Source of the DNA: Candidatus Geothermincola secundus
GTDB taxonomy: Bacteria; Actinomycetota; Geothermincolia; Geothermincolales; Geothermincolaceae
Assembly: GCA_015711755.1 (NCBI GenBank)
Contig: JACVIY010000007.1
Span: forward strand, 1 to 40,022
Length of the DNA: 40,022 nucleotides
Direction: 5' to 3'
The translations under genes and the position numbers were made by a program. The notes beneath the pieces were generated by a model, which saw nothing but the letters and a program-made list of their open reading frames with translations, had not been told where the DNA came from and searched no databases. Each line of letters opens with the position of its first letter. The first letter of the stretch is position 1. This document shows, one piece after another, positions 4,268 to 34,910 of the stretch.

Positions 4268-5620
4268 ATGCGTTCCCTCGAAGGGATGAAGGATGCGGAG
4301 TATCAGCCCGGAAAGGGCCAAGCGGCGCGAGAGGCGATGACTTCGCTGGAGATCATCAATCTGGGATGTAAGGTCAATCAATCCGAAGGGCGCGTACTGG
4401 CACGGCGGCTTGCCTCTCTCGGGTTTGACGTTGCCGATCGATGGGAGAAGCCCCGCGTGACCGTCATCAACGCATGCGCCGTGACCGCTGCGAGCGAGGC
4501 CAAGGCGCGTAAAGAGGTGGCGCGGGCGCGCGGGCGCGGCTCGTCCATGGTTGTGTTGACCGGCTGTCTGGCCGGTATGGGTATAGAGAGATGGCGCGAG
4601 GAGTCGCGGCCTGATGCGGTGGTCCCGCAGAAAGGAAAGGAGGATCTGCCGGAACGGCTTGCGGAATCCTTGATTCCAGCCGATCTCCGAAAGCGGAGAG
4701 CCGACCGCGCGCTTCCCGTCGGGAGTCGGGCCAAAGCTTTTATAAAAGCGCAGGACGGATGCGGGCACCCGTGCTCTTATTGCGTGGTTCCCGCGCTGAG
4801 GGGAGGACCCGTGAGCTTTCCCGCGGAGCGGATCATAGGAGAGGCGCGGCGATGTCTGGAAGAAGGAGCGGGAGAACTGATCCTGTGCGGGATAAATCTC
4901 GGTGCCTGGGGCGATGGGAAGGGAGGCAGACTCGATAGGCTGGCATCCCTGATGCTCCGGTTGGGAGGGGGTTTTCGTTTGCGCCTCAGCTCGATAGACC
5001 CGCAGGATCTTGATGAAGATCTCCTCGACGGCCTGCGCGAGATCGGGAGGCTTTGCCCGCATTTCCATATCCCCTTGCAGAGCGGCAGCGACCGCGTCCT
5101 GCGGGCCATGGAGAGGGGATATGGCTCCGACGATTACCTATACCTGATAGAAGAAATACGCAGAAGATGGAACGACTGCGCCGTGACCACCGATGTCATA
5201 GTGGGTTTCCCCGGCGAGAGCGAAGCCGATTTCAACGATACCCTCGAGCTGCTGAGGGAGATAAGGCCTTCGAGGGTGCACGTGTTCCGCTATTCGCCTC
5301 GTCCGGGGACTAAGGCGGCAAAGATGAGCGGACAGGTCAGCGAGGCGGTTAAGCGCGAGAGAGCGGCCGAAGTCTCGTGCTTGGCGACCACATTGTCCGT
5401 GGAATATGCCGATTCGCAGGCGGGGAAGGAACTCGAGCTTCTTGTTGAGAGAAGCTCGCCCTTCGGAGTATATGGGACCACCGGCAATTATCTGAAGGCG
5501 TTGATTCCCGGGGTCTCGGCGGAGACGGGAGCCCTCTTGAGCGGACGCGTGGAGAGGTCGGAGGAGGGGCTGCTGGTAATGAACGCGGCCTCGTCAGCAA
5601 TGAAAAGCGCAAGCGTTTAG
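4268..5620 (+). CDS. mtaB: MtaB, tRNA N6-threonylcarbamoyladenosine(37) methylthiotransferase
   Basis: This is a radical SAM methylthiotransferase. The N-terminal domain carries three cluster-binding cysteines in LGCKVNQSE, INACAVTAASEAKAR and LTGCLAGM. The radical SAM core has CxxxCxxC in DGCGHPCSYCVVP, and a TRAM-like RNA-binding tail follows. LGCKVNQ and the SSIDPQDLD segment fit MtaB, which adds a methylthio group to t6A37 of tRNAs reading ANN codons, rather than MiaB or RimO. The start is uncertain. The frame opens with an ATG at 4241 inside rsmE. ATG 4268 has the best-spaced purine-rich site (4252-4262). ATG 4337 (MTSLEIINLGCK) matches where homologues usually begin but has only GAGAGG two bases upstream. 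Confidence 0.92.
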   Translation: MRSLEGMKDAEYQPGKGQAAREAMTSLEIINLGCKVNQSEGRVLARRLASLGFDVADRWEKPRVTVINACAVTAASEAKARKEVARARGRGSSMVVLTGCLAGMGIERWREESRPDAVVPQKGKEDLPERLAESLIPADLRKRRADRALPVGSRAKAFIKAQDGCGHPCSYCVVPALRGGPVSFPAERIIGEARRCLEEGAGELILCGINLGAWGDGKGGRLDRLASLMLRLGGGFRLRLSSIDPQDLDEDLLDGLREIGRLCPHFHIPLQSGSDRVLRAMERGYGSDDYLYLIEEIRRRWNDCAVTTDVIVGFPGESEADFNDTLELLREIRPSRVHVFRYSPRPGTKAAKMSGQVSEAVKRERAAEVSCLATTLSVEYADSQAGKELELLVERSSPFGVYGTTGNYLKALIPGVSAETGALLSGRVERSEEGLLVMNAASSAMKSASV

Positions 5621-23330: not shown

Positions 23331-24848
23331 ATGCCGGATTACGATGTCGTGGTGATCGGCGGGGGCGCTGGCGGACTGTCAGCCGCAGCGCTCTGCCAGA
23401 AGGCTGGTATGAAGACCCTGGTATTGGAGCAGTCGGATCGGATCGGCGGATGTTGTTCCACCTTTGAGGCCGAGGGTTTTCATTTCGACGTCGGGGCCAG
23501 CGTGGTGGAGGTGACCGAGTCCTTTGAGGAGCTGTTCCGGCGCCTGGGATTGAGCCGCGAGAAGTACATACCACTGGTGCCCGTGGACCCCATTTATGAT
23601 TACTGCGACATCACCAGAGGGGTGCGCTTCGCATATCCCACCGATGTGGAAGAGACCGCCAAGGTCATATCGGAGTTCTCCCCCGAGGACGGAAAGGCGT
23701 TTCTGAAATTCGCGCGCGACTTCACTCCCAAGATAAAGGGCCTGGTGGGTAACTTCTTCTACGCGCCCTGCCAGGGCTTCCTGGACATAATCAAGCTGGT
23801 TATCAAATATCCTGGCATCATGGAAGCCCTGCCCATGTTCTTCACCACCCACCAGAAGATAGTCCGCAAGTACTTCAAGAACGACGATGTGCTCGCCTCC
23901 ATGGCTTTTCAGTCCTTCTACGCGGGGCTGCCGCCGGACCTCTGCGCGGGGCTTTACGCTATAGTGGGACTGCTCGAGCACGAGGGCATCTACTACCCTC
24001 CGGGCGGCATGATCGGAATCCCTCGAGGCATACAGCGCGCTCTGGAGGATCTGGGCGGAGAGGTGCAGTTCGGCAAGCGGGTGGTGAAGATACTGGTCGA
24101 GAAGCGAACCGCCAAGGGCGTGGAATTATGGGACGGCACGCAGATAACCGCGGGCAATGTCATCGGGGCCATTAACGCCAAAAAAGTGTACATGGAGATG
24201 ATCGGGAGGGAGCATCTGCCCTGGCACGTCTGGCGGGGTATAGATTCGATGAAGCTGTCCATGCCCTGCCCCATGATCTACCTCGGCATCGATTACGAGC
24301 CTCCCCTGCGGGCCCATCATACCCTCACTCTGACCAGCCCCCAGGTGATGAACGATTACTGGAGCGACTATTATCTGAAGGGCAAGCTTTACACGGTGGA
24401 CGGCAGGCCGGAGATCATGGGGCTGGTTTCCTGGGCCAGCAAGGTCGACCCCGGCTTGGCTCCCGAAGGAAAGCACGTCCTCACCCACATGGGCTTGGCC
24501 CCCTATAACCTCGCGGGCGACGACTGGGATCGCCATAAGGAACGCTACATCGATGAGGCCATAGCGACGGTCGAGCGCTACATGATCCCCGACCTTTCCG
24601 ACCACGTTGTCTATCGGGACATGGCCACGCCCAAGGACCTCGAACGCATGCTTCTGCATCCGGGCGGGGCGGTCTACGGCATACAGACCGACCTTTCCCA
24701 CATGGCCATGTTCCGCCCGTCCAACAAGAGCAAGTCCATTAAGAACCTGTACCTGGCCGGGGCTTCCACGCATCCCGGCGGGGGCGTCTGCACGGTGGTG
24801 GCGGGAGGCATAATCACCGCCACTTTGTTGACCCGAGACAACGCTTGA
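23331..24848 (+). CDS. Phytoene desaturase/RetSat-like FAD oxidoreductase, copy A
   Basis: The 505-residue flavoprotein has the dinucleotide motif G10-x-G12-x-x-G15 in VVVIGGGAGGLSAA and EQSDRIGGCCSTF. The C-terminal FAD motif is NLYLAGASTHPGGGVCTV. These mark the CrtI/CrtISO/RetSat branch, which desaturates, isomerises or saturates polyenes using FAD. There is no phytoene synthase or other carotenoid gene in the window, so a carotenoid substrate is not supported. The ATG at 23331 is preferred over GTG 23322 (AGGGG at 23316-23320). It is clearly paralogous to the copy at 30720 (shared AFQSFY/SFQSFY, EHEGIYYP, EHLPW and ASTHPGGGV). A 46-residue membrane peptide follows 12 bases later. Confidence 0.85.
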   Translation: MPDYDVVVIGGGAGGLSAAALCQKAGMKTLVLEQSDRIGGCCSTFEAEGFHFDVGASVVEVTESFEELFRRLGLSREKYIPLVPVDPIYDYCDITRGVRFAYPTDVEETAKVISEFSPEDGKAFLKFARDFTPKIKGLVGNFFYAPCQGFLDIIKLVIKYPGIMEALPMFFTTHQKIVRKYFKNDDVLASMAFQSFYAGLPPDLCAGLYAIVGLLEHEGIYYPPGGMIGIPRGIQRALEDLGGEVQFGKRVVKILVEKRTAKGVELWDGTQITAGNVIGAINAKKVYMEMIGREHLPWHVWRGIDSMKLSMPCPMIYLGIDYEPPLRAHHTLTLTSPQVMNDYWSDYYLKGKLYTVDGRPEIMGLVSWASKVDPGLAPEGKHVLTHMGLAPYNLAGDDWDRHKERYIDEAIATVERYMIPDLSDHVVYRDMATPKDLERMLLHPGGAVYGIQTDLSHMAMFRPSNKSKSIKNLYLAGASTHPGGGVCTVVAGGIITATLLTRDNA

Positions 24849-24860
24849 GGGGGTGCCTGC

Positions 24861-25001
24861 ATGAAGAAGTTGATGTTGCTGGCGATGTTGCTTGGAGCGG
24901 TGGTGGGCGCGCTGGCGGCGGTGACTGAGCCGTCCGACTGGCGTTATCCAAAGATGCTGCTCATCGAGCTGCCTAAGATGCCCTTCCGCTATTTCGTCTG
25001 A
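24861..25001 (+). CDS. Small membrane protein with MPxRYF tail, copy 1
   Basis: A 46-residue protein, too short for most gene callers, has GAGGGGG (24847-24853) seven bases before its ATG. It sits in a 160-base slot between copy A and the acyl-CoA synthetase subunit. It has a positively charged start, one hydrophobic helix (about residues 4-20) and the tail ELPKMPFRYFV. The protein at 32232 ends QVPYMPARYFA and has the same layout in the same position after copy B. The conserved tail, good ribosome-binding site and paired position argue for a real gene. The family is not recognised. A membrane anchor or partner of the desaturase-like enzyme is an inference. Confidence 0.8.
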   Translation: MKKLMLLAMLLGAVVGALAAVTEPSDWRYPKMLLIELPKMPFRYFV

Positions 25002-25008
25002 GCAGGCT

Positions 25009-26415
25009 ATGAGGGACTTCTTCAATCCCGCCAGCGTGGCCGTGGCCGGCGCCTCGCGCTCGGGGGAGAAGCTGGGCAACGTGGCCATTGCCAACATGAG
25101 GCGATTCGGCTATGCCGGCAGGATATTCCCCATACACCCTCAAGCGGACACGATCATGGGGCTTCCCGCCTGTCCCTCTCTGGAATCCTTGCCCCAACCG
25201 GTGGACATCGCCATAGGCGTGATCCCCCGCGAACTCATCCCCGGGTTCGTGCAGGAATGCGGGAAGGCGGGAGTCAGGAAGGTCATCGTATCGGCGGCGG
25301 GTTTCGCCGACGCGGGCGGGGAGGGAGTGGCCCTGCAGGAGAAGGTGGCGAGTATTGCGGCGGACGCGGGGGTGCGCATGATGGGCCCCAACAGCGTGGG
25401 GACCATCAGCACGGAGTCGGGCTTCGTCACTTCAATATTGAGTCTGGAGAAGCTGGGCAGGGGCTCTCTCTCCATAGTCGCTCAGACCGGCCTTTTCGCG
25501 GCGGGTCTGGCGCGTTGGATCGCCACAACCCAATATTTCGGGCTGGCCAAGGTGGCTTGCCTGGGCAACAAAGCCGATGTGAACGAATTGGACATATTGA
25601 GTTATTACCGTGATGACCCCCAGACCGGCCTGATCGGCGTGTACACGGAGGGGGTGGAGGACGGCAGGGGTTTTTTTGACATACTGCGCAGTATAACCCC
25701 CAATAAGCCAGTCCTTGTGCTCAAGGGCGGGCGAACGGAGACCGGCAGCCGCATGGCCGCGAGCCATACCGGTTCTTTGGCGGGCTCGCCGGAGGTATAT
25801 CGAGGCGCCTTGGCTCAGGCCGGCGCTATCGAGGTCGAGTCGCTGGAAGAGCTGTTCGACCTGGCTAAAGCCCTGCAGTATTGCCCGGAACCGCGGGGTC
25901 CCAACCTCGGGGTCATATCGGTGACCGGGGGAGGGTGCGTGATGGCCGCAGACGCCTGCTTCAGCCGCGGCCTGAGATTGCCGCCCCTGAAGGAAGGCAC
26001 CTTGCAGGAGGCAAAACAAGTGGCCCCGCCCTGGGCCTCCCTGACCAATCCGGCTGACATCTGGTCCGCGGTGGAGACGCGGGGCATCGGCAAGGCCTAT
26101 TTGGGGATAACCAGGGCCATGGCCGGGCAGGACGATGTGGATATGCTCATGCCCGTGTTCACCTTGGTTCCGGAATCCGCCTTCGATATGGCCGATGCCT
26201 ACGGGCAGATACGTGAGGAATTTCCGGAAAAACCGCTGCTGGCATGCGCCATAGGAGGTTCCCGGGACGAGTATGATGAGTGGTTCGAAGCCATGGAGAA
26301 GCTGGGGATCCCCGCCTACGGTTCCGTGGAAAGGGCGGTGGCCGCGGCAGCTGCGCTATATCGTTACCATGCATGGCGCAGAGAGCGGATGAGGCGGCCT
26401 ATGACGTCGACTTAA
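25009..26415 (+). CDS. ADP-forming acyl-CoA synthetase alpha-type subunit (CoA-binding, succinyl-CoA-ligase-like)
   Basis: The 468-residue protein has an N-terminal CoA-binding Rossmann domain (FFNPASVAVAGASRSGEKLG; IFPIHPQ). Two succinyl-CoA-synthetase-like flavodoxin domains follow, with MMGPNSVG and the phosphohistidine H253 in AASHTGSLAGS. This is the alpha half of acetate/acyl-CoA synthetase (ADP-forming), which interconverts acyl-CoA plus ADP and Pi with acid, CoA and ATP. The ATP-grasp beta domain is not fused and no beta gene lies in the window, so a partner elsewhere is needed for classical activity. It lies between the small membrane protein (7-base gap) and the first FAD oxidoreductase of the operon. 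Confidence 0.85.
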   Translation: MRDFFNPASVAVAGASRSGEKLGNVAIANMRRFGYAGRIFPIHPQADTIMGLPACPSLESLPQPVDIAIGVIPRELIPGFVQECGKAGVRKVIVSAAGFADAGGEGVALQEKVASIAADAGVRMMGPNSVGTISTESGFVTSILSLEKLGRGSLSIVAQTGLFAAGLARWIATTQYFGLAKVACLGNKADVNELDILSYYRDDPQTGLIGVYTEGVEDGRGFFDILRSITPNKPVLVLKGGRTETGSRMAASHTGSLAGSPEVYRGALAQAGAIEVESLEELFDLAKALQYCPEPRGPNLGVISVTGGGCVMAADACFSRGLRLPPLKEGTLQEAKQVAPPWASLTNPADIWSAVETRGIGKAYLGITRAMAGQDDVDMLMPVFTLVPESAFDMADAYGQIREEFPEKPLLACAIGGSRDEYDEWFEAMEKLGIPAYGSVERAVAAAAALYRYHAWRRERMRRPMTST

Positions 26416-26499
26416 GCCCGACGATGAGGGGGAGTCGAGTCAGGGTTGTTGGTATGTTTTCTGCAGGAAGGGGAAGATGGTGAAAGGGGTGGTGCTCCG

Positions 26500-27870
26500 G
26501 TGAAAGGGGAAGTGCTCAAAGGATTGGTCGAATGCTTGGGAAGGGAGAACGTGACCGCAGATGCGGGTAGATTGAAGGGCTACTTTGAAAGGCTGCCTGC
26601 GTCTACCGATCTGGCGTTGGCCACGCCTTCCGATCTGGACGGGCTGAGCGAGGCGGTGGCTTTCGCTTACGAGAACGATACCCCCATCTATTCACACAAG
26701 CGGGGGAAGATGCCTGAAGAGGTCGCATCAAGCGGAGGGGTGCTTTTCGACTTGAGCGGCATGCGGAAAATAATCCGCATAGACCAGCCCAACCTGCTGG
26801 CCTTCATCGAATACGGGGTCACCTTCGAGCGTATGAAGGAGGAGCTGGACCGGATGGGGCTGCGCATGCTCATGCCCGCGGCGGCCACCTCTTCCTCGGT
26901 GGTGCGCTCTTACGTCGATCGAGATATTATCCTGGCCAACGGGGCCACTCGACCTTATCAGTTCACCATCTTTCACGCTGTGCTTGCGGATGGCAGGGTG
27001 TGGATGAGCGGCAACGATCAGTTTACCCCGGACGGTCATTCCGAGTTCCGGGAGGATTTCGGACCCATGTATTCCAATTTCTTCCATGCCTCGGAGGACA
27101 TCTTCGGCATTCCCTACGCGGTGAAGGCATGGGTGTACAAGCGCTGGGAGGAGCGGCGGGTGCGCGCCTACTCCTTCTCCAGTGCCGCGGAGGCCATCCG
27201 AACCGCCTATCTGGTTTCCCGACACGATCAGGTCTTCGAGTGCGTGGCGGCGGATGCCCGCTACCTGAGCGTGCTGCTTTCCCGCACGCCGGAGGAGGCC
27301 GAAAGTATGGCGGAAAAGCTGGCGCCCTGGACCCTGGTGATGGGGTTCGACAATCACCCCAAACTTGTGGAGATATGGGATCGCCAAACCGCTTCTCTGG
27401 CGGCTGAGAACGGCGGAAAGCCCGCGGATGACGGGCTGGCAGCTCGGATGCTGGAACGCTTCGAACTGCCCTGGTATATGGAAGAGCGAGAATACTACCG
27501 TGGAGGGGTCACCGCCATAGACCATTATTCCTTTATGGGCAAGGCACCCTCGTTCCTGGAAGCGGCGAGGGAGGCCATGTCCGGTTACGAGACGGGACAG
27601 GTGGTCATCCCCATGTACTACGGGGCCGCGTGTTATTGCGAGACAGACATCTATCATCCCGCCGATGACGCAGAGGTCGAGGATAAGTGGGTTAGCGCTT
27701 ATTCTCGGCTCCTGGACATGGGCGCCCATCTCAACCGCCCCTCGGGCAAGGTGGCGGAGATGGTCTGGAAAAGGATGGACGGCGAGAACATACGCATGAT
27801 CAAGGAGCTCAAGAAGGTGCTCGACCCCAAGGGCCTTCTAAACCCGGGGCAACTGATGGAGGGGGTGTGA
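26500..27870 (+). CDS. FAD-binding oxidoreductase (VAO/GlcD-like), divergent
   Basis: The GTG at 26500 gives 456 residues and is favoured over a TTG at 26446; AAAGGGG about ten bases upstream is the likely ribosome-binding site. The protein resembles PCMH-type FAD oxidoreductases. It has an N-terminal FAD-binding half (LATPSDLDGLSEAVAFAYE, FIEYGVTFERMKEEL) and a C-terminal half ending LKKVLDPKGLLNPGQLM, typical of the GlcD/VAO group. The usual glycine-rich GxGxN loop is replaced by a segment around YSHKRGKMPEEV, so FAD binding may differ. It is followed two bases later by an iron-sulfur CCG protein, recalling GlcD-GlcF pairs in which electrons from a 2-hydroxy acid reach the membrane. The substrate is unknown. 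Confidence 0.75.
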   Translation: MKGEVLKGLVECLGRENVTADAGRLKGYFERLPASTDLALATPSDLDGLSEAVAFAYENDTPIYSHKRGKMPEEVASSGGVLFDLSGMRKIIRIDQPNLLAFIEYGVTFERMKEELDRMGLRMLMPAAATSSSVVRSYVDRDIILANGATRPYQFTIFHAVLADGRVWMSGNDQFTPDGHSEFREDFGPMYSNFFHASEDIFGIPYAVKAWVYKRWEERRVRAYSFSSAAEAIRTAYLVSRHDQVFECVAADARYLSVLLSRTPEEAESMAEKLAPWTLVMGFDNHPKLVEIWDRQTASLAAENGGKPADDGLAARMLERFELPWYMEEREYYRGGVTAIDHYSFMGKAPSFLEAAREAMSGYETGQVVIPMYYGAACYCETDIYHPADDAEVEDKWVSAYSRLLDMGAHLNRPSGKVAEMVWKRMDGENIRMIKELKKVLDPKGLLNPGQLMEGV

Positions 27871-27872
27871 AC

Positions 27873-29075
27873 ATGGAGGGCAGGCTGACCAAAAAGAGGG
27901 CCAAGCTCACCGATTACCGCGACGATTACTGGGTATGCGGCAAGTGCAAGATGTGCCAATCCATCAACGTGCAGAAGTTCGAGAGCGCGCGCTTCTCGGC
28001 CAACTGCCCCTGCGGTACCCGCTACCGCTTCGAGTCTTACTATGCGGCGGGGATGATGGAGATAGCCCGGGCCATCACCAACCTGGAGTTCGATCCCAAC
28101 GAGAAGACCGCCGATATCATATATTCATGCAACCTCTGCGGTCTGTGCCAGGAGATGTGCTTCCCTCTGAAAGGGCTTCACACCACCAACATCATCCAGC
28201 TCATGAGGGAGAAGGCGGTGGAGGAGGGATGGGGCCCCCTTCCCGCCCATCGACAGCTGCTGGAATCAACCGCCGCCAACGACAACCCCTTCGGTCTGAA
28301 GCCGGGATTCAAGGGCAAGGCGGTGAAGGGGCTGGGTCTGAAGGATGCCGGGAAGGAGAAATGCGAGGACCTGCTCTTCGTGGGTTGCGCCCTGGCCGCC
28401 GGCAGCGCGGACATGCAGAGGAAGTTGGAGTCGCTGGTAAAAGTGCTCAAGACGGCGGGTCTGGACCTGGGGGTGCTGGGTAACGCTGAACCGTGCTGCC
28501 GTTCCTTCAGTTTGGCGCTGGGAGACCGCGACGGGTTCGAGGAGAACGCGCTGGAGAACATCGAGAAGCTCAAGGCCAGCGGGGCCTCGCGCATCATCTC
28601 TGCCTGCCCGCATTGCCTGCAGGTCTTGCAGGACGAGTACTCTCCGTATTTGGGGATGGAGGTCGTTTCGGCGGTTCAGATCATCCCCAAGCTGCTCAAG
28701 AGCAAGAAGTTGGAGCTCAAAGGGGAAGCGCGGGTAAAGGCCGCTTACCACGACCCGTGCTTCCTGGGGCGCTGGTGCGAGGTATATGAGCAGCCCCGCC
28801 GCGCCCTGGCGGCGGTCCCCGGACTGGAGATTCTGGAGTTCGAGCGCAACCGGGAGAACTCCTGGTGCTGCGGGGCCGGGGGAGGGGTGAAGGCAGCCAA
28901 GCCGGATCTCTCCTCTTGGACCGCCCAGGAACGACTGGAGGAGGCCAGGGCGGTGGGGGCGGAGGCCATCGTCACCGCCTGTCCCCACTGCGAGAGCCAA
29001 TTCGCGGCGGAGACGGATATGCCCGTGTACGACGTCTTCGAACTCCTGGCTCGCGGTTTGGGGGAGGTGATCTGA
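27873..29075 (+). CDS. Iron-sulfur CCG-domain protein, GlcF/HdrD-like
   Basis: The 400-residue protein (ATG 27873 with GGAGGGGG seven bases upstream; GTG 27867 is an alternative) begins with a cysteine-rich region: VCGKCKMCQ, then CPCG. It continues with a ferredoxin-like YSCNLCGLCQEMCFP. Two cysteine-rich CCG domains follow, one with CCRSF and ACPHCLQVL, the other with HDPCFLGRWCEVYE, WCCGAGGG and ACPHCESQF. CCG domains hold noncubane [4Fe-4S] clusters in heterodisulfide reductase HdrB/D and in GlcF/LutA-type electron-transfer subunits. Lying between two FAD oxidoreductases, it is the likely electron acceptor of one or both. No heme b subunit is encoded nearby. Confidence 0.85.
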   Translation: MEGRLTKKRAKLTDYRDDYWVCGKCKMCQSINVQKFESARFSANCPCGTRYRFESYYAAGMMEIARAITNLEFDPNEKTADIIYSCNLCGLCQEMCFPLKGLHTTNIIQLMREKAVEEGWGPLPAHRQLLESTAANDNPFGLKPGFKGKAVKGLGLKDAGKEKCEDLLFVGCALAAGSADMQRKLESLVKVLKTAGLDLGVLGNAEPCCRSFSLALGDRDGFEENALENIEKLKASGASRIISACPHCLQVLQDEYSPYLGMEVVSAVQIIPKLLKSKKLELKGEARVKAAYHDPCFLGRWCEVYEQPRRALAAVPGLEILEFERNRENSWCCGAGGGVKAAKPDLSSWTAQERLEEARAVGAEAIVTACPHCESQFAAETDMPVYDVFELLARGLGEVI

Positions 29076-29076
29076 G

Positions 29077-30690
29077 ATGAAGGGAAAGGACCTGCAGAAG
29101 GACCTGAAGGAGCGCAAGATCATCAAGGTGCCGCGCAAACACGAGATCGAGCAAACCCACAACCTGCCGGAGAACCTGGAGAAGGCGTATGCCGAGCTGC
29201 AGGAGGCCCTGGGCAGCGAGTGGGTCTCCAACGATATCAACGTGACCGTGGCCTATGCCCGCGATCAGTCGGTTGTCCCCATGAACCATCCGGACATCGT
29301 GGCCCTCCCCGGCTCCACCGAAGACGTCATCGCCCTGATGAAGATCGCCAACAAGTACCTCGTCGACGTCATGCCTTACGGAAGCGGGCTCAACACCCTG
29401 GGCATGACCATACCCCCCTACGGCGGCATCCTCTGCGACCTGCGCCGCATGGACAGCATCGTGGAGATAGACGCGGACAACATGTTCTGCACCATCGGAC
29501 CGGGAGTGACCTTCGCCCAACTGCAGACGGAGACGCTGAAGAAGGGGCTGAGGCTGATCAACCCGAGCACCTCGGCCAACGCCTCGGTGGTCTCCAATAT
29601 CATGATGGGCAATATCTCAACCTTGGCCAACAAGTACGGGGTGGGCCTCGACCACATCATCGGGTATAAGATCGTGCTGCCAGACGGCCGCCTGATGGTC
29701 TGCGGACCTCAGGCTTACGGTGCGGACAACGCCCATCTCCCGGGCCCGGGCCCGGACGTGCGCGCCTTCATCCGAGGGTCGCTGGGCTGCATGGGCATCA
29801 TCACCGAGATGACCATACGCCTCTACCCGGAGCCGCAGGCGCTCAAGCTCACGGTGCCCATCTACGACGGGGACGACTGGGGGGTCATAGCCCCCGCGCT
29901 CAAGGCCATCAGCCAGCGCAACATCGTCATCGAGAACGCCTACTTCCAGAACACCTACATGGGGATCTTCATGGGGGAGACCAACCTGGAGAGCTCCAGG
30001 CTCATACCGGCCCTTCCCCGCCACTACGTGGTCCCGGTCACCGGCGGCCTCACCCAGGAGGAAGTGGAGGCCAAGGGAGAGGTCTGCCAGGAGGACATCC
30101 TGGCCGCGGCCCCCCAGTTCGAGTTCATGGACTGGGAGATCGTCGAGGGGATCTCCAGCGGGCGCATCCTCGGAGTGGACAAGTTCACCCGCTTCTTCCG
30201 GGAGTCGGTGCGTGTCCAGAGGGTCAAGGGGAGCTTCTTCGTGGGATTCGGGCTGGACCATCTGGACAACCTGCCGGAGATCAACAAGGCCATGATGCGC
30301 GGGATGACCAGCCAGGTGGGTACGGACGACAATGTGTTCTCCGCCGACCTCATCGCCACCTATTTCCAGCCCTACGATATGGGAAGGCTGGGCTTCATCG
30401 AGTTCGACATCTTCATCGACCAGTCCAACCCGGAGGACTCCCTGCGCACCATCACCGGGACCCTGGCGGCCATGATCGCCTCCTTCAAGATGGGCTCCGG
30501 GGTGTGCTTCGGCATCTGGCCGCTGGTCGAGGGAGCAGGGCCGCTGCACGACCTGCTGGGCTTCATCTATCCGGCGGCGGCCACCTATGTCGACACTTAC
30601 CGCGACATGAAGATGATCTATGACCCCAACAACGTATGCAACCGGCGTTGGGATTACGACACCATGCGCATGAAAAAAGCGGCCCTCTGA
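29077..30690 (+). CDS. FAD-binding oxidoreductase (VAO/GlcD family)
   Basis: The 537-residue flavoprotein has a standard PCMH-type FAD domain: IVALPGSTEDVIALMKIAN, MPYGSGLNTLG (the pyrophosphate-binding loop), and TIGPGVTFAQLQ. IRGSLGCMGIITEMTIRLYP follows, then a C-terminal cap and the end IYDPNNVCNRRWDY. This is closest in style to glycolate/lactate oxidase GlcD and vanillyl-alcohol-oxidase-like enzymes. The ATG at 29077 lies one base after the CCG gene's stop, with GGGAGGTG eight bases upstream. Third codon positions are almost always G or C, more so than in neighbours, which may reflect high expression. Substrate unknown; a partnership with the CCG protein is inferred from the gene order. 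Confidence 0.85.
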   Translation: MKGKDLQKDLKERKIIKVPRKHEIEQTHNLPENLEKAYAELQEALGSEWVSNDINVTVAYARDQSVVPMNHPDIVALPGSTEDVIALMKIANKYLVDVMPYGSGLNTLGMTIPPYGGILCDLRRMDSIVEIDADNMFCTIGPGVTFAQLQTETLKKGLRLINPSTSANASVVSNIMMGNISTLANKYGVGLDHIIGYKIVLPDGRLMVCGPQAYGADNAHLPGPGPDVRAFIRGSLGCMGIITEMTIRLYPEPQALKLTVPIYDGDDWGVIAPALKAISQRNIVIENAYFQNTYMGIFMGETNLESSRLIPALPRHYVVPVTGGLTQEEVEAKGEVCQEDILAAAPQFEFMDWEIVEGISSGRILGVDKFTRFFRESVRVQRVKGSFFVGFGLDHLDNLPEINKAMMRGMTSQVGTDDNVFSADLIATYFQPYDMGRLGFIEFDIFIDQSNPEDSLRTITGTLAAMIASFKMGSGVCFGIWPLVEGAGPLHDLLGFIYPAAATYVDTYRDMKMIYDPNNVCNRRWDYDTMRMKKAAL

Positions 30691-30719
30691 AAAGGGTCCT
30701 CGAGAAGAGGAGGTTGGGA

Positions 30720-32219
30720 ATGGCGGATTACGACGTTATCGTCATAGGGGCAGGCAACGGCGGCATAAGCTGCGCCGCTCTGCTGGCCAAACAGGGCCGC
30801 AAGGTCCTGGTGTTGGAGCAGAGCGACCGGGTAGGAGGGTGCTGTTCCACCTTCGTCAAGGACGGCTATCACTTCGACGTGGGCGCTTCCATAGTCGAGG
30901 TGATCTACCCGATCGAGCTGGCATTCAAGATGCTGGGAACCGAGTTCCAGAAGGAAGTCGAGCTCATACCCTGCGATCCTATCTACAGCTACATCTTCCG
31001 CGACGGCAGCCGGGTCAACTATCCCCTCTCGCTGGAGGGTACGGCGGAAGTCATCGGCAAGCTCAACGAGGCGGACGGGAAGCAGTGGTACAAACTGGCC
31101 GATTACTTCGCCGAGATGATGAAGCAGACCATCGAGGCCTTCTTCACCAGCCCCGCCAACAACATGGTGGATATGCTGAAGATGGTGGCCAAGAACCCTG
31201 GCATCCTCAAGTTTCTGCCGCTATTCGCCACCAGCTACCAGGATGTCATCAAGAAGTACTTCAAGGACGAAGTGGTGCAGCAGACCATGTCCTTCCAGTC
31301 CTTCTACTGCGGCTTGCCGCCCGAGCTTGCCCCGGGCTTCATCGCCTTGATCCCCTATTCGGAGCATGAGGGCATCTATTATCCCCGCGGTGGCATGATC
31401 CAGATACCCGAGGCCTTCCGACGCATCGGCGAGAGCTTGGGAATGGAGCTGCGCTTCAACGCCAAGGTGGACAAGGTGCTGGTACGCAACCGCCGTGCGG
31501 AGGGAGTGAGGCTGGCGGACGGGACTGAGATAACCTCGAAACTGGTGGTGTCCAACGTAAACGCCAAAAAGCTTTATCTGGAGTACATAGGAGAGGAGCA
31601 CCTGCCCTGGATAAACCGCGTGGGCATGAAGAGCTACGAAGTTTCCATGTCCTGCATGATGATGTACGTCGGCTGCGACTACCGCCCGCCGCTGGAGGCG
31701 CACCACAGCCTGACCATCGGCCCTCTCCAGATGATGAACGACTTCTGGTACAACGAGTACAAGAACGGCCAGATACCCGAGGATGTCTACGGGCTGATCT
31801 GCTGGCCCACCGAGTCCGACCCGGCTTTGGCGCCGGAAGGACACCACGTCCTCAACATCATGGGCATGGGGCCCTACAGGCTGCAGGGCCAGAGTTGGGA
31901 CGAGGAGAAGATGAGGGTGGCGGAAAAGTTCATCAACGAGCTGTCCAAGTTCGCCATCCCCGACCTCAAGGACCACGTCACCGTGCTTGAGGTATCAACG
32001 CCGGTGGATTTCGAGAGGCGCCTGCTCTCTCCTGGCGGGGCCATCTACGGATTGCAGATGGATATACCGGCGCAGGCAGTTTTCCGGCCTGCGTCCCGCT
32101 CAAAATGCATCAAGGGGCTCTACCTAACGGGAGCCTCCACCCATCCGGGGGGCGGCGTACCCTCGACCATCGCTTCGGGGTTGATCGCCTCCACCCTGAT
32201 CGAAAAGTACGAGAAGTAG
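30720..32219 (+). CDS. Phytoene desaturase/RetSat-like FAD oxidoreductase, copy B
   Basis: The 499-residue flavoprotein (ATG 30720 with AGGAGG at 30707-30713; an upstream start at 30636 inside the previous gene is rejected) has G10-x-G12-x-x-G15 in VIVIGAGNGGISCA. EQSDRVGGCCSTF and the C-terminal LYLTGASTHPGGGVPST are also present. It aligns over its whole length with copy A and probably arose from it by duplication. Differences cluster in the middle (residues 90-180), which could alter substrate choice. As with copy A, a tiny MPxRYF-tail membrane protein follows, here after 12 bases. Confidence 0.85.
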   Translation: MADYDVIVIGAGNGGISCAALLAKQGRKVLVLEQSDRVGGCCSTFVKDGYHFDVGASIVEVIYPIELAFKMLGTEFQKEVELIPCDPIYSYIFRDGSRVNYPLSLEGTAEVIGKLNEADGKQWYKLADYFAEMMKQTIEAFFTSPANNMVDMLKMVAKNPGILKFLPLFATSYQDVIKKYFKDEVVQQTMSFQSFYCGLPPELAPGFIALIPYSEHEGIYYPRGGMIQIPEAFRRIGESLGMELRFNAKVDKVLVRNRRAEGVRLADGTEITSKLVVSNVNAKKLYLEYIGEEHLPWINRVGMKSYEVSMSCMMMYVGCDYRPPLEAHHSLTIGPLQMMNDFWYNEYKNGQIPEDVYGLICWPTESDPALAPEGHHVLNIMGMGPYRLQGQSWDEEKMRVAEKFINELSKFAIPDLKDHVTVLEVSTPVDFERRLLSPGGAIYGLQMDIPAQAVFRPASRSKCIKGLYLTGASTHPGGGVPSTIASGLIASTLIEKYEK

Positions 32220-32231
32220 GAGGTGTGGCCG

Positions 32232-32420
32232 GTGGCTGCTGTGAAGAAGGGCGAGGGAAAAGGCAAGGGGCGCATCGGATCGAAACTGAAAATGGTGGTG
32301 CTTTTGGCGCTGATGGCTGCGATTGCTGCCCGCTACGCCACCCTTGACGCTTCTAAAAAGCGCTTTATCAAGCATATCCTCAAGCAGGTGCCCTACATGC
32401 CGGCGCGTTATTTCGCCTGA
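32232..32420 (+). CDS. Small membrane protein with MPxRYF tail, copy 2
   Basis: A 62-residue product starts at the GTG at 32232 (GGAGG at 32219-32223, eight bases before). It has a basic, Lys/Gly-rich N-terminus, one hydrophobic helix (about residues 24-37) and the tail QVPYMPARYFA. Against copy 1, the last 20 residues share about nine identities with no gap, and the helices fall in register with one gap. It is absent after the third, more divergent desaturase-like gene. The link to copies A and B suggests co-function at the membrane. The family is not recognised. Confidence 0.75.
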   Translation: MAAVKKGEGKGKGRIGSKLKMVVLLALMAAIAARYATLDASKKRFIKHILKQVPYMPARYFA

Positions 32421-32435
32421 GCGCATAAAAACCGA

Positions 32436-32441
32436 TATAAT
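32436..32441 (+). promoter_or_regulatory. Possible internal -10 element of the redox operon
   Basis: A perfect TATAAT sits in the 95-base gap between small membrane protein 2 and the iron-sulfur gene. No good -35 box is seen 16-18 bases upstream. If used, transcripts would begin just before the hairpin at 32452. Confidence 0.3.
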
Positions 32442-32451
32442 GTCGTCGTAT

Positions 32452-32475
32452 CCGGGGGGTCGAAAGGCCCCCCGG
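32452..32475 (+). other. GC-rich hairpin with GAAA tetraloop
   Basis: CCGGGGGGTC (32452-32461) pairs with GGCCCCCCGG (32466-32475) over ten pairs, one of them G-U, around a GAAA loop of the stable GNRA type. No T-run follows, so it is not a classical terminator. It could stabilise a transcript end or cause partial attenuation between the two halves of the operon. Confidence 0.75.
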
Positions 32476-32515
32476 CGCGATGGGCAGTTTTCCGCGAGGG
32501 AAAGGAGAGCCCGGG

Positions 32516-33316
32516 ATGGGCAGGAGCAAACGGAGTTTCGACCGCATCCTCAGCTTGTACAAGCACAAGGACCTGGCCTTCAGCATGACCAACTGGCCGA
32601 TAATAGGCAGTTTGGGAAAGCGGATCATGGATGCGGACAACCTGACCCTCACATATATCCCCATCAACAAGAATCTGGGTCTGCCGCAGAGCTCCCCGGC
32701 ACCGCTTAGCATCATCGAACATTTCATCGAGAAGGCCTGCCACCATGTGATACTGCACCGCTGCCCCTGCCGCAGCGAGAACGGTTGCCGCGACTACGAC
32801 CCCTATCACGGCTGTACCTTCCTGGGGGCCGCGGCCCGCGACGTCCATCCCGACGTGGGGCGCCACGTTTCCAAGGAGGAGGCGCTGGAGCATCTGCGGC
32901 GGGCCACTGACGCCGGCTTGGTCAGCTGCTTGGGGAGGTTCAAGGGTGATGCCATCATGTTGGGCGTGAAGGACCATGCGCATCTGATGACCATATGCCA
33001 CTGCTGCCCGTGCTGCTGCATTTCCACCAGCATGCCCCTGGCTTCGCGGGAAGCGCGGGACAAGCTGGTGAGGCTGGAGGGATTGACGGTGCGCGTCGAC
33101 GAGGGGAAATGCAACGGATGCGGGCTTTGCGCGGAAGGTTGCATTTTTCGGGCGATCGAAATCAAGGACGGGAAGGCCGTTGTGGGCGAGGAATGCAAGG
33201 GTTGCGGGAGATGCGCGATGGTCTGCCGGCGGCAGGCCGTGAGCATAACCATCGAAGACCCGTCTTTCATAGAGAGGTGCATTGAGCGCATTTCCGCCAA
33301 GGTCGATGTGACCTGA
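32516..33316 (+). CDS. Cysteine-rich protein with two [4Fe-4S] ferredoxin motifs
   Basis: The ATG at 32516, with AAAGGAGAG seven bases upstream, gives 266 residues; an ATG at 32480 is possible. The C-terminus holds two ferredoxin motifs, CNGCGLCAEGC and CKGCGRCAMVC. The first 200 residues carry further cysteines: HRCPCRSENGC with a later YHGCTFLG, then CHCCPCCC. Between them are helices with HVSKEEALEHLRRATDAGLV. I know this layout from ferredoxin-like proteins of anaerobes, but no function is assigned to it. The many cysteines suggest extra clusters or metal. It lies between copy B plus its small protein and the third desaturase-like gene, so it is a likely electron carrier for the system. 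Confidence 0.8.
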   Translation: MGRSKRSFDRILSLYKHKDLAFSMTNWPIIGSLGKRIMDADNLTLTYIPINKNLGLPQSSPAPLSIIEHFIEKACHHVILHRCPCRSENGCRDYDPYHGCTFLGAAARDVHPDVGRHVSKEEALEHLRRATDAGLVSCLGRFKGDAIMLGVKDHAHLMTICHCCPCCCISTSMPLASREARDKLVRLEGLTVRVDEGKCNGCGLCAEGCIFRAIEIKDGKAVVGEECKGCGRCAMVCRRQAVSITIEDPSFIERCIERISAKVDVT

Positions 33317-33356
33317 AAACGCGCCCATTTAACCTCGGAGGAAAGGAGAATGCCAG

Positions 33357-34910
33357 ATGGCCGAGCGGCGAAAGTACGACGTCGTGATCATAGGAGCCGG
33401 AGTGGCCGGCCTGACCTGCGGGAACTATCTTGCCCGGGCGGGCAAAAAAGTGCTCATCCTCGAGCACGGGAAGAACGTGGGCGGGAACATACAGGGCATG
33501 CGCCGCAAAGGGTTCTTCTTCGATTGCGGATGCCAATCGACCGAGTCAGTAGGGATCCTTTTCCCTATATTGGAGGATCTGGGAATATACGACCCCGACC
33601 AGTGGGATAAAGGGACATGGAGATGGGCGACGCCCGACTGCGATGTCCCGCTTACGGAATACGAGCAGATACGGGAGGATTTCAAACGCTGTTACCCGTC
33701 TTCGGCAAAAGGGATCGACCGCTGGTTCGATTTCATCGTCCCCGGTTGTCGGGTGATGAAGGGCATGATGGGAGAGATGCCCTTTCCCCTGGTGAAAAGG
33801 GGAAGAGAGAAATACCGCATTCTGGGCAGGATGTCCAGGGTGGGCATGGGATTCATGCCCATGGTAAGGGAAGCGCTTTCCCTCACCGGCAGGGAGAAGT
33901 GTCTTAAACTGTTCGATGACCGCCGCCTGACTTTTCTGTTCGGTGAGTTCGGTGACCCCAACATGCTGCTCTTCATGTACTTCTCTTTCTGGTACAGCTT
34001 CGTCAACGATTACTGGTATCCGAAAGGGGGGCTGAAGACGCTCGCGGAAATACTGGCCGACCGCTTCCGCGAGTGGGGGGGGGAGATCGAGTTCCAGGCC
34101 ACCGTGGACTCCGTCCTGACTGAGGGGTCTTGCGCCGTGGGAGTGGAGACCGCCGAAGGGGAACGCTATTTTGCCGACCGTGTGGTCAACACGGGAAATC
34201 CCAAGCGCCTGGTCGGCCGAATGGTGGATGCTTCCTTGCTGCCGGGGAAATATTCGGAGACCCTCCGGCATGCGCCCGTCAGTTATTCCATGTCCACCGC
34301 CTTTCTCGGCTTGGATATGGACCACGAGGAGCTGCTATCTCACCTTAAGTGCACTCACACCCTCTACTGGAGGACTTACGGCTTCGAGGAGGACAACTAC
34401 GACCCCGACATCCACCGCAAGGGGATGTCCATGATCACCTGGTGCTCCATGCACGACAAGTCTCTGGCGCCGGAGGGAAAGAACTCCATAATCGTACAGG
34501 TACGCACACCGTATCATTGGCTCAACGGCTGGGGGACGGGATCGGCCGATCCTGAGGCGCGCAACGAGGAGTATCGCCGCTTGAAGCAGAGAGTGCTTGA
34601 AGACATCATCACCGATACGGAGGCGGTCATACCCGGGTTGAGGGGAAAGGTGGTCTTCAGTGATCTGGCAACCCCCCGCACTCTGTCTCGCTACACCCTC
34701 AATCCGGAGGGGTCCATCATGGGATGGTCCTACGACCGTTACCGCACTCCCCTCTACGGCAGGTTCGCGCGCTTCAGGACCCCCGTAACCAACCTCTACA
34801 TGGCAGGGCATTATGCCATATGGCCGGGGGGCGTGGTGTTCTCTGCCCTCAGCGGGAAGATAGTGGCCGAGGGCATGTACGAGGGCATCGCCAAGGTCTT
34901 GCTCTGGTAA
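33357..34910 (+). CDS. NAD(P)/FAD-dependent oxidoreductase, third desaturase-like protein (copy C)
   Basis: The 517-residue flavoprotein has the Rossmann motif G13-x-G15-x-x-G18 in VVIIGAGVAGLTCG, EHGKNVGGNI, and a C-terminal FAD-binding NLYMAGHYAIWPGGVVFSALSG. It belongs to the same phytoene desaturase/RetSat/amine-oxidase superfamily as copies A and B but is clearly more distant: the GGCCSTF and ASTHPGGGV motifs are replaced. AAGGAG precedes the ATG at 33357 by about eight bases. No small MPxRYF gene follows. It is the last gene of the operon before a 322-base non-coding stretch. A different or later step on the same substrate is plausible but unproven. Confidence 0.8.
   Translation: MAERRKYDVVIIGAGVAGLTCGNYLARAGKKVLILEHGKNVGGNIQGMRRKGFFFDCGCQSTESVGILFPILEDLGIYDPDQWDKGTWRWATPDCDVPLTEYEQIREDFKRCYPSSAKGIDRWFDFIVPGCRVMKGMMGEMPFPLVKRGREKYRILGRMSRVGMGFMPMVREALSLTGREKCLKLFDDRRLTFLFGEFGDPNMLLFMYFSFWYSFVNDYWYPKGGLKTLAEILADRFREWGGEIEFQATVDSVLTEGSCAVGVETAEGERYFADRVVNTGNPKRLVGRMVDASLLPGKYSETLRHAPVSYSMSTAFLGLDMDHEELLSHLKCTHTLYWRTYGFEEDNYDPDIHRKGMSMITWCSMHDKSLAPEGKNSIIVQVRTPYHWLNGWGTGSADPEARNEEYRRLKQRVLEDIITDTEAVIPGLRGKVVFSDLATPRTLSRYTLNPEGSIMGWSYDRYRTPLYGRFARFRTPVTNLYMAGHYAIWPGGVVFSALSGKIVAEGMYEGIAKVLLW

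Follow-up and report, generated by a model that had tools for sequence, protein, structure and literature searches.

The DNA analyzed here is a window of 40,022 nucleotides from Candidatus Geothermincola secundus and corresponds to contig C6 of its draft genome (2.39 Mb, 83% complete). Two short open reading frames (ORFs) in this window, encoding tail peptides A and B, each follow a gene for a CrtI-like flavin adenine dinucleotide (FAD) oxidoreductase, termed E1 and E2, respectively. The stop codons of the enzyme genes end at positions 32219 (E1) and 24848 (E2), leaving a gap of 12 bases before each small ORF. Judged by their sequences, both peptides are members of an unnamed family of predicted single-helix membrane proteins. 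The features concerned are the following (aa, amino acids; dN/dS, ratio of nonsynonymous to synonymous substitution rates):

23331 to 24848, plus strand: E2, CrtI-like FAD oxidoreductase of 505 aa, partner enzyme of type II; 295.9 bits to TIGR02734; PF01593
24861 to 25001, plus strand: peptide B, the type II tail peptide of 46 aa, with a single hydrophobic helix; MKKLMLLAMLLGAVVGALAAVTEPSDWRYPKMLLIELPKMPFRYFV
24921 to 24998, plus strand: coding region of the 26 conserved tail residues of peptide B, ending in EPSDWRYPKMLLIELPKMPFRYFV, used for the dN/dS contrast
30720 to 32219, plus strand: E1, CrtI-like FAD oxidoreductase of 499 aa, partner enzyme of type I; 320.5 bits to TIGR02734; fold matching 4rep
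32232 to 32420, plus strand: peptide A, the type I tail peptide of 62 aa, with a GTG start and a single hydrophobic helix; VAAVKKGEGKGKGRIGSKLKMVVLLALMAAIAARYATLDASKKRFIKHILKQVPYMPARYFA
32340 to 32417, plus strand: coding region of the 26 conserved tail residues of peptide A, ending in LDASKKRFIKHILKQVPYMPARYFA, used for the dN/dS contrast

The coordinates of the two small ORFs and their 12-base distance from a desaturase-like gene, as given in an earlier note on this DNA, were confirmed. So were the single hydrophobic helix in each peptide and the resemblance of the C-terminal ends, put there at about nine positions and counted here as 9 identities in the last 20 residues, ungapped. The window contains two frames that end in P-x-[LM]-P-x-R-Y-F-x-stop, whereas 60 dinucleotide shuffles yielded none. 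The strong ribosome-binding sites described earlier hold for the ORF at 32232, which has a full Shine-Dalgarno match (6 to AGGAGG), and not for the ORF at 24861, where the match is moderate (4). Across 30 relatives, the mean Shine-Dalgarno match equals 5.4 out of 6, versus 1.6 at internal ATGs, an average that is weak evidence because many start codons were picked with the help of this signal. The small ORFs are probably translated. Pfam and NCBIfam gave no supported match for either window peptide, nor for 34 and 33 family members, and the peptide alignment, used as the query against PDB, Pfam, and NCBIfam, returned chance matches only, in agreement with the absence of a known family reported before.

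Both enzymes exceed the curated cut-off of TIGR02734 (crtI_fam, 238.1 bits); "RetSat-like," as used in the earlier note, is a looser label. Their likeness to the CrtI family extends to the fold in the case of E1, for which a Foldseek search places gamma-carotenoid desaturase 4rep nearest (template modeling score of 0.88 by target), with CrtI itself (4dgk) at 0.77; monoamine oxidases were returned as well. The same genome contains eight close members of this enzyme branch. The annotated part of the window, to which this check was confined, showed no enzyme of a carotenoid pathway.

Relatives of the peptides were sought with a profile hidden Markov model, built first from three peptides and then, as model A3, from 34, and run over 31 Geothermincolia genomes. 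Peptides A and B match A3 with E values of 7.8e-21 and 1.4e-15, respectively, and 18 of the 31 genomes together hold 53 strong matches (E ≤ 1.4e-15). A tail search of the kind proposed in the earlier note recovered relatives, and all 53 strong matches in the class lie beside a CrtI-like gene. By coordinate comparison, 52 share the strand of such a gene and are within approximately 0.6 kb of it, with 49 located downstream of an enzyme; the 53rd adjoins an enzyme start (80% identical) that is truncated by the contig end. Eight other genomes have an orthologue of peptide B downstream of E2, and a third peptide copy in the C. secundus genome, MKKKIRAALGLALIAGAAAAYFSASESTRRYIKHLGRQVPYLPYRYLI, follows a branch enzyme on contig C47. 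With an enzyme threshold of E ≤ 1e-100, 18 class genomes contain both enzyme and peptide, five the enzyme only, and eight neither (Fisher P = 1.6e-4). The five enzyme-only genomes mainly hold more distant enzymes, some of them with divergent peptides below the threshold. This distribution bears on whether the ORFs could be toxins of type I toxin-antitoxin systems or chance frames. Small hydrophobic peptides are typical of type I toxins, yet the tight linkage to one enzyme branch, the absence of the peptide where the enzyme is absent, and the purifying selection on the tail described below leave this explanation scarcely credible.

Outside the class, a profile search of 297 Actinomycetota genomes found the peptide in 15 of the 25 Geothermincolia genomes and in none of the 272 others. 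Named loci with the peptide come from Candidatus Geothermincola, Solincola, Geohydrothermomicrobium, and Chloroflexota, and the peptide also stands beside the enzyme in genomes labeled Deltaproteobacteria (Myxococcota according to the tree annotation). As delimited by these matches, the family spans at least three bacterial phyla. Two of 249 Anaerolineae genomes, for which six enzyme candidates per genome were scored, contain the peptide, one with an enzyme at E ≤ 1e-100 and the other with the enzyme in two pieces. Peptide-model matches in further genomes, from other classes (G592, G596, G305, G307, G312, G318, and others) likewise adjoin a CrtI-like gene, mostly 45 to 63% identical to E1. Among these, G592 and G596 provide the least circular test of linkage; G305, G307, G312, and G318 were picked for holding an enzyme relative.

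The peptide gene is located either upstream or downstream of the enzyme gene, with gaps of about 16 to 570 bases, and the pairing persists despite the varying position. Up to seven paralogous peptides are present per genome, nearly all adjoining their own enzyme, and many immediately follow the stop codon of the enzyme in the same frame. This last arrangement, together with the close spacing, would suit a leader or coupling peptide that controls how the neighboring genes are translated and lacks a role as a protein. Such a role is very improbable, given that the peptide occurs on both sides of the enzyme gene, at such different distances, and is conserved at the amino acid level across phyla. 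Tandem pairs of tail peptides adjoin an enzyme at L048:4500-5086 and G029:C51:14617-14909. Long open frames of 504, 548, and 594 aa around some peptides were rejected as fusion proteins; judging from the first two, they seem to be frames that overlap in DNA of high GC content. None of the enzyme C termini listed carries the tail.

A dedicated partnership between the peptide and this CrtI-like branch is strongly supported by these comparisons of sequence and gene order. For 42 enzyme-peptide pairs, the two distance matrices correlate with a Mantel r of 0.80, a value reached by 0 of 9,999 permutations (best, 0.22). Three tail types track three enzyme clades even inside one genome, indicating that enzyme and peptide diversified together. 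On an enzyme tree of 90 rows, where L039 and L054 were labeled as peptide-less (later corrected), the adjacency labels require 18 changes versus 40.6 when shuffled. This joint diversification supports the proposal that enzyme and small protein duplicated as a unit.

The tail is under purifying selection, as had also been suggested, judging from dN/dS values of 0.13 (type I), 0.09 (type II), and 0.15 (type III), versus 0.43 to 0.63 overall for the helix part (0.43 for type I and 0.63 for type II); the contrast counts more than the values, because synonymous sites are near saturation and the pairs are non-independent. Nearly all members keep the hydrophobic helix (mean hydropathy of 2.07), and drift of its sequence with retained hydrophobicity is expected where membrane insertion is the sole need. 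The tail consensus is roughly [DE]-x-S-x-[KR]-R-[YF]-x-x-H-L-x-[KR]-Q-[VIL]-P-Y-[LM]-P-x-R-Y-[FYM]-[VIA], with a Tyr at position -3 that is invariant in the 42 pairs. An invariant Tyr would fit a peptide that is itself a substrate, namely, a precursor whose C-terminal R-Y-F-V/I/A is modified into a redox cofactor or signal, as for mycofactocin or pyrroloquinoline quinone. A conserved C-terminal end adjoining an oxidoreductase is, moreover, the layout of cofactor precursor peptides. However, no gene for a radical S-adenosylmethionine enzyme, for recognition of ribosomally synthesized and posttranslationally modified peptides, or for a peptidase is present among the annotated cluster genes, the paralogous peptides nearly all have an enzyme of their own, and cofactor precursors are not known to include a membrane helix. 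We consider a precursor role improbable.

The reading that we favor, and regard as reasonably probable, is that the peptide is a dedicated membrane-bound partner of the FAD enzyme, either an anchor or a small subunit, with the tail as its docking segment. The hydrophobic helix would sit in the membrane, and the conserved C-terminal segment would bind the cognate enzyme and keep it there. At this site, the enzyme would have access to its greasy substrate and to quinone or iron-sulfur (Fe-S) electron acceptors, and the C-terminal segment may shape the substrate entrance. We infer that the peptide binds the enzyme directly and anchors or activates it. DPM3, the membrane tether of catalytic DPM1, is a comparable small hydrophobic protein serving one catalytic partner, as are CydX and AcrZ. 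The tail peptides differ from DPM3 in lacking homology (one peptide matches PF08285, at an E value of only 0.12), in being paired with another enzyme class, and in being most conserved in their C-terminal ten-residue motif. Monoamine oxidases, which belong to the same flavoprotein superfamily as E1 according to the fold search, are held at the membrane by a covalent C-terminal helix; the tail-peptide helix, in contrast, would come as a separate gene product. Pantoea CrtI is membrane peripheral, with a substrate in the lipid phase (PMC3382138). Searches of the literature for a small membrane partner of CrtI-like enzymes returned nothing relevant.

Several observations weigh against a membrane-bound partner docking through its tail. 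No recognizable peptide was found near the branch enzymes L042, L047, L062, L083, L086, and L092 to L097, and the E1 orthologue L036 lacks a peptide in the 319 bases examined downstream; in the genome of L036, a type I tail is nevertheless present next to a sister gene (L046). Homologous loci without a short ORF had been named in the earlier note as a sign against its proposal: all 53 strong peptide matches are paired, and several branch enzymes have no recognizable peptide nearby. The invariance of P, P, and R in the tail arises partly by selection, since these residues were in the first search pattern. E1 and peptide A are in frame, and their read-through translation was modeled as one chain using AlphaFold, giving a mean predicted local distance difference test score of 90.9 (linker, <50; peptide helices, 86 to 91; tail, 85 to 88). 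In a control, the peptide alone, supplied with 32 relatives, scored 92 to 96 in the helices, 83 in the next block, and 68 in the last two residues. The fused model is no proof of contact, as the peptide is nearly as confident without the enzyme; this confidence is mostly intrinsic to the peptide, and the fusion was dropped as evidence of docking. Finally, the charges next to the helix differ little between its N side (mean of +2.5) and its C side (+1.8), so that an extracytoplasmic tail is possible. A cytoplasmic tail, as presumed in the favored reading, would be favored by a form with four transmembrane segments (4-TM) and by that of L082 and L085, both described below.

Weak matches of the first search (E of 0.001 to 0.3) include likely divergent members; their dismissal as noise was dropped, since many adjoin enzymes and look like such members. 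Class B peptides, located 25 to 57 bases upstream of another enzyme clade, end in ELREMPFRVFI and alike, and peptides preceding a pair of ~360-aa flavoproteins end in RMPGRLLT. L082 and L085 have forms ending in KNMYYRYHV. The C. secundus genome has a divergent version just upstream of an enzyme on contig C9. Another, MLRKLIFAAAFFAAGFYAALQLEEGTRLNINKWISEIPKLPGRLLT, belongs to a cluster of flavoprotein genes on C105 (L144:522-686, reverse complement), where the neighbor falls outside the main enzyme branch. Like the copy on C47, these two went unseen in the earlier note. In L156, L157, and L158, the gene immediately downstream of a third CrtI-like clade encodes a protein of ~150 aa that has about four hydrophobic segments and ends in RELPHVYYRYRT or a similar sequence. 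L054 holds a 35-aa form at about 4500 to 4650, ending in VRYMIPRYFV, in which the tail is kept and a hydrophobic helix is lacking. The divergent versions were grouped by position and tail resemblance, and the most divergent among them are putative homologues.

The pairing is thus more flexible than first proposed: its position varies, some enzymes are unpaired, and a similar tail is found on a 4-TM protein or without a helix. As a tentative extension, which we hold to be possible and somewhat doubtful, the ten-residue C-terminal P-x-L-P-x-R-Y motif may be a general docking code by which the CrtI-like branch is recruited to varied scaffolds (single helix, 4-TM, or none), with paralogue-specific tails separating up to seven pairs per cell.

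The remaining genes around the two pairs are as follows:

25009 to 26415, plus strand: acyl-CoA synthetase (ADP-forming) alpha-like protein; TIGR02717 as best NCBIfam match (below cut-off), CoA_binding_2 and Succ_CoA_lig
26446 to 27870 (start approximate), plus strand: FAD-linked oxidase-like protein; PF01565/PF02913, synteny
27867 to 29075 (start approximate), plus strand: cysteine-rich (CCG) Fe-S protein; PF02754, synteny
29077 to 30690, plus strand: FAD-linked oxidase (GlcD-like); PF01565, synteny
32480 to 33316 (start approximate), plus strand: 4Fe-4S ferredoxin-domain protein; PF00037, synteny
33357 to 34910, plus strand: third, more distant CrtI/CrtISO-like flavoprotein without an adjoining tail peptide; PF01593, below the TIGR02734 cut-off, synteny

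Positions 23331 to 34910 of the window form a conserved multi-flavoenzyme and Fe-S operon. Its order (E2, peptide B, acyl-CoA synthetase alpha-like, FAD oxidase, CCG Fe-S protein, FAD oxidase, E1, peptide A, ferredoxin-like, and third CrtI-like protein) recurs piecewise in relatives, in which the acyl-CoA synthetase-like gene also comes after E2 and its peptide. The Fe-S and FAD-linked electron-transfer proteins encoded here would also suit a peptide that is not a plain anchor and acts instead as a regulatory or assembly subunit, like CydX, AcrZ, or KdpF, activating or stabilizing the flavoenzyme or an electron-transfer complex. The linkage and co-divergence data fit this equally, and the helix-free form of L054 is unexpected of an anchor. 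Nearly all members nevertheless keep a hydrophobic helix while its sequence drifts, and we judge a regulatory or assembly subunit of this kind unlikely.

Paired paralogues are also known among the COG1233-type flavoenzymes of anaerobic isoprenoid metabolism, namely, CtmAB (limonene dehydrogenase) and delta-24 steroid desaturase (PMC4109377, PMC11061730). The covalent-flavin histidine motif of this group, G-F-[LR]-x-[NS]-[TL]-H-A (PMC11061730), was absent from every enzyme sequence gathered for the tree, and a CtmAB-type identity was rejected on this ground. The ctm cluster of Castellaniella defragrans also has a ferredoxin gene, and ctmAB is followed there by the hypothetical genes ctmC and ctmD, which have no significant relatives (PMC4109377). 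Both ctmC and ctmD may be of the same kind as the tail peptides.

CrtI-like enzymes act on membrane-dissolved substrates, yet they look soluble and have no anchor. The tail-peptide family offers a testable answer to how such enzymes may be positioned at the membrane and what may keep close paralogues separate. It also points to possible enzyme subunits of fewer than 70 residues that escape standard family libraries.

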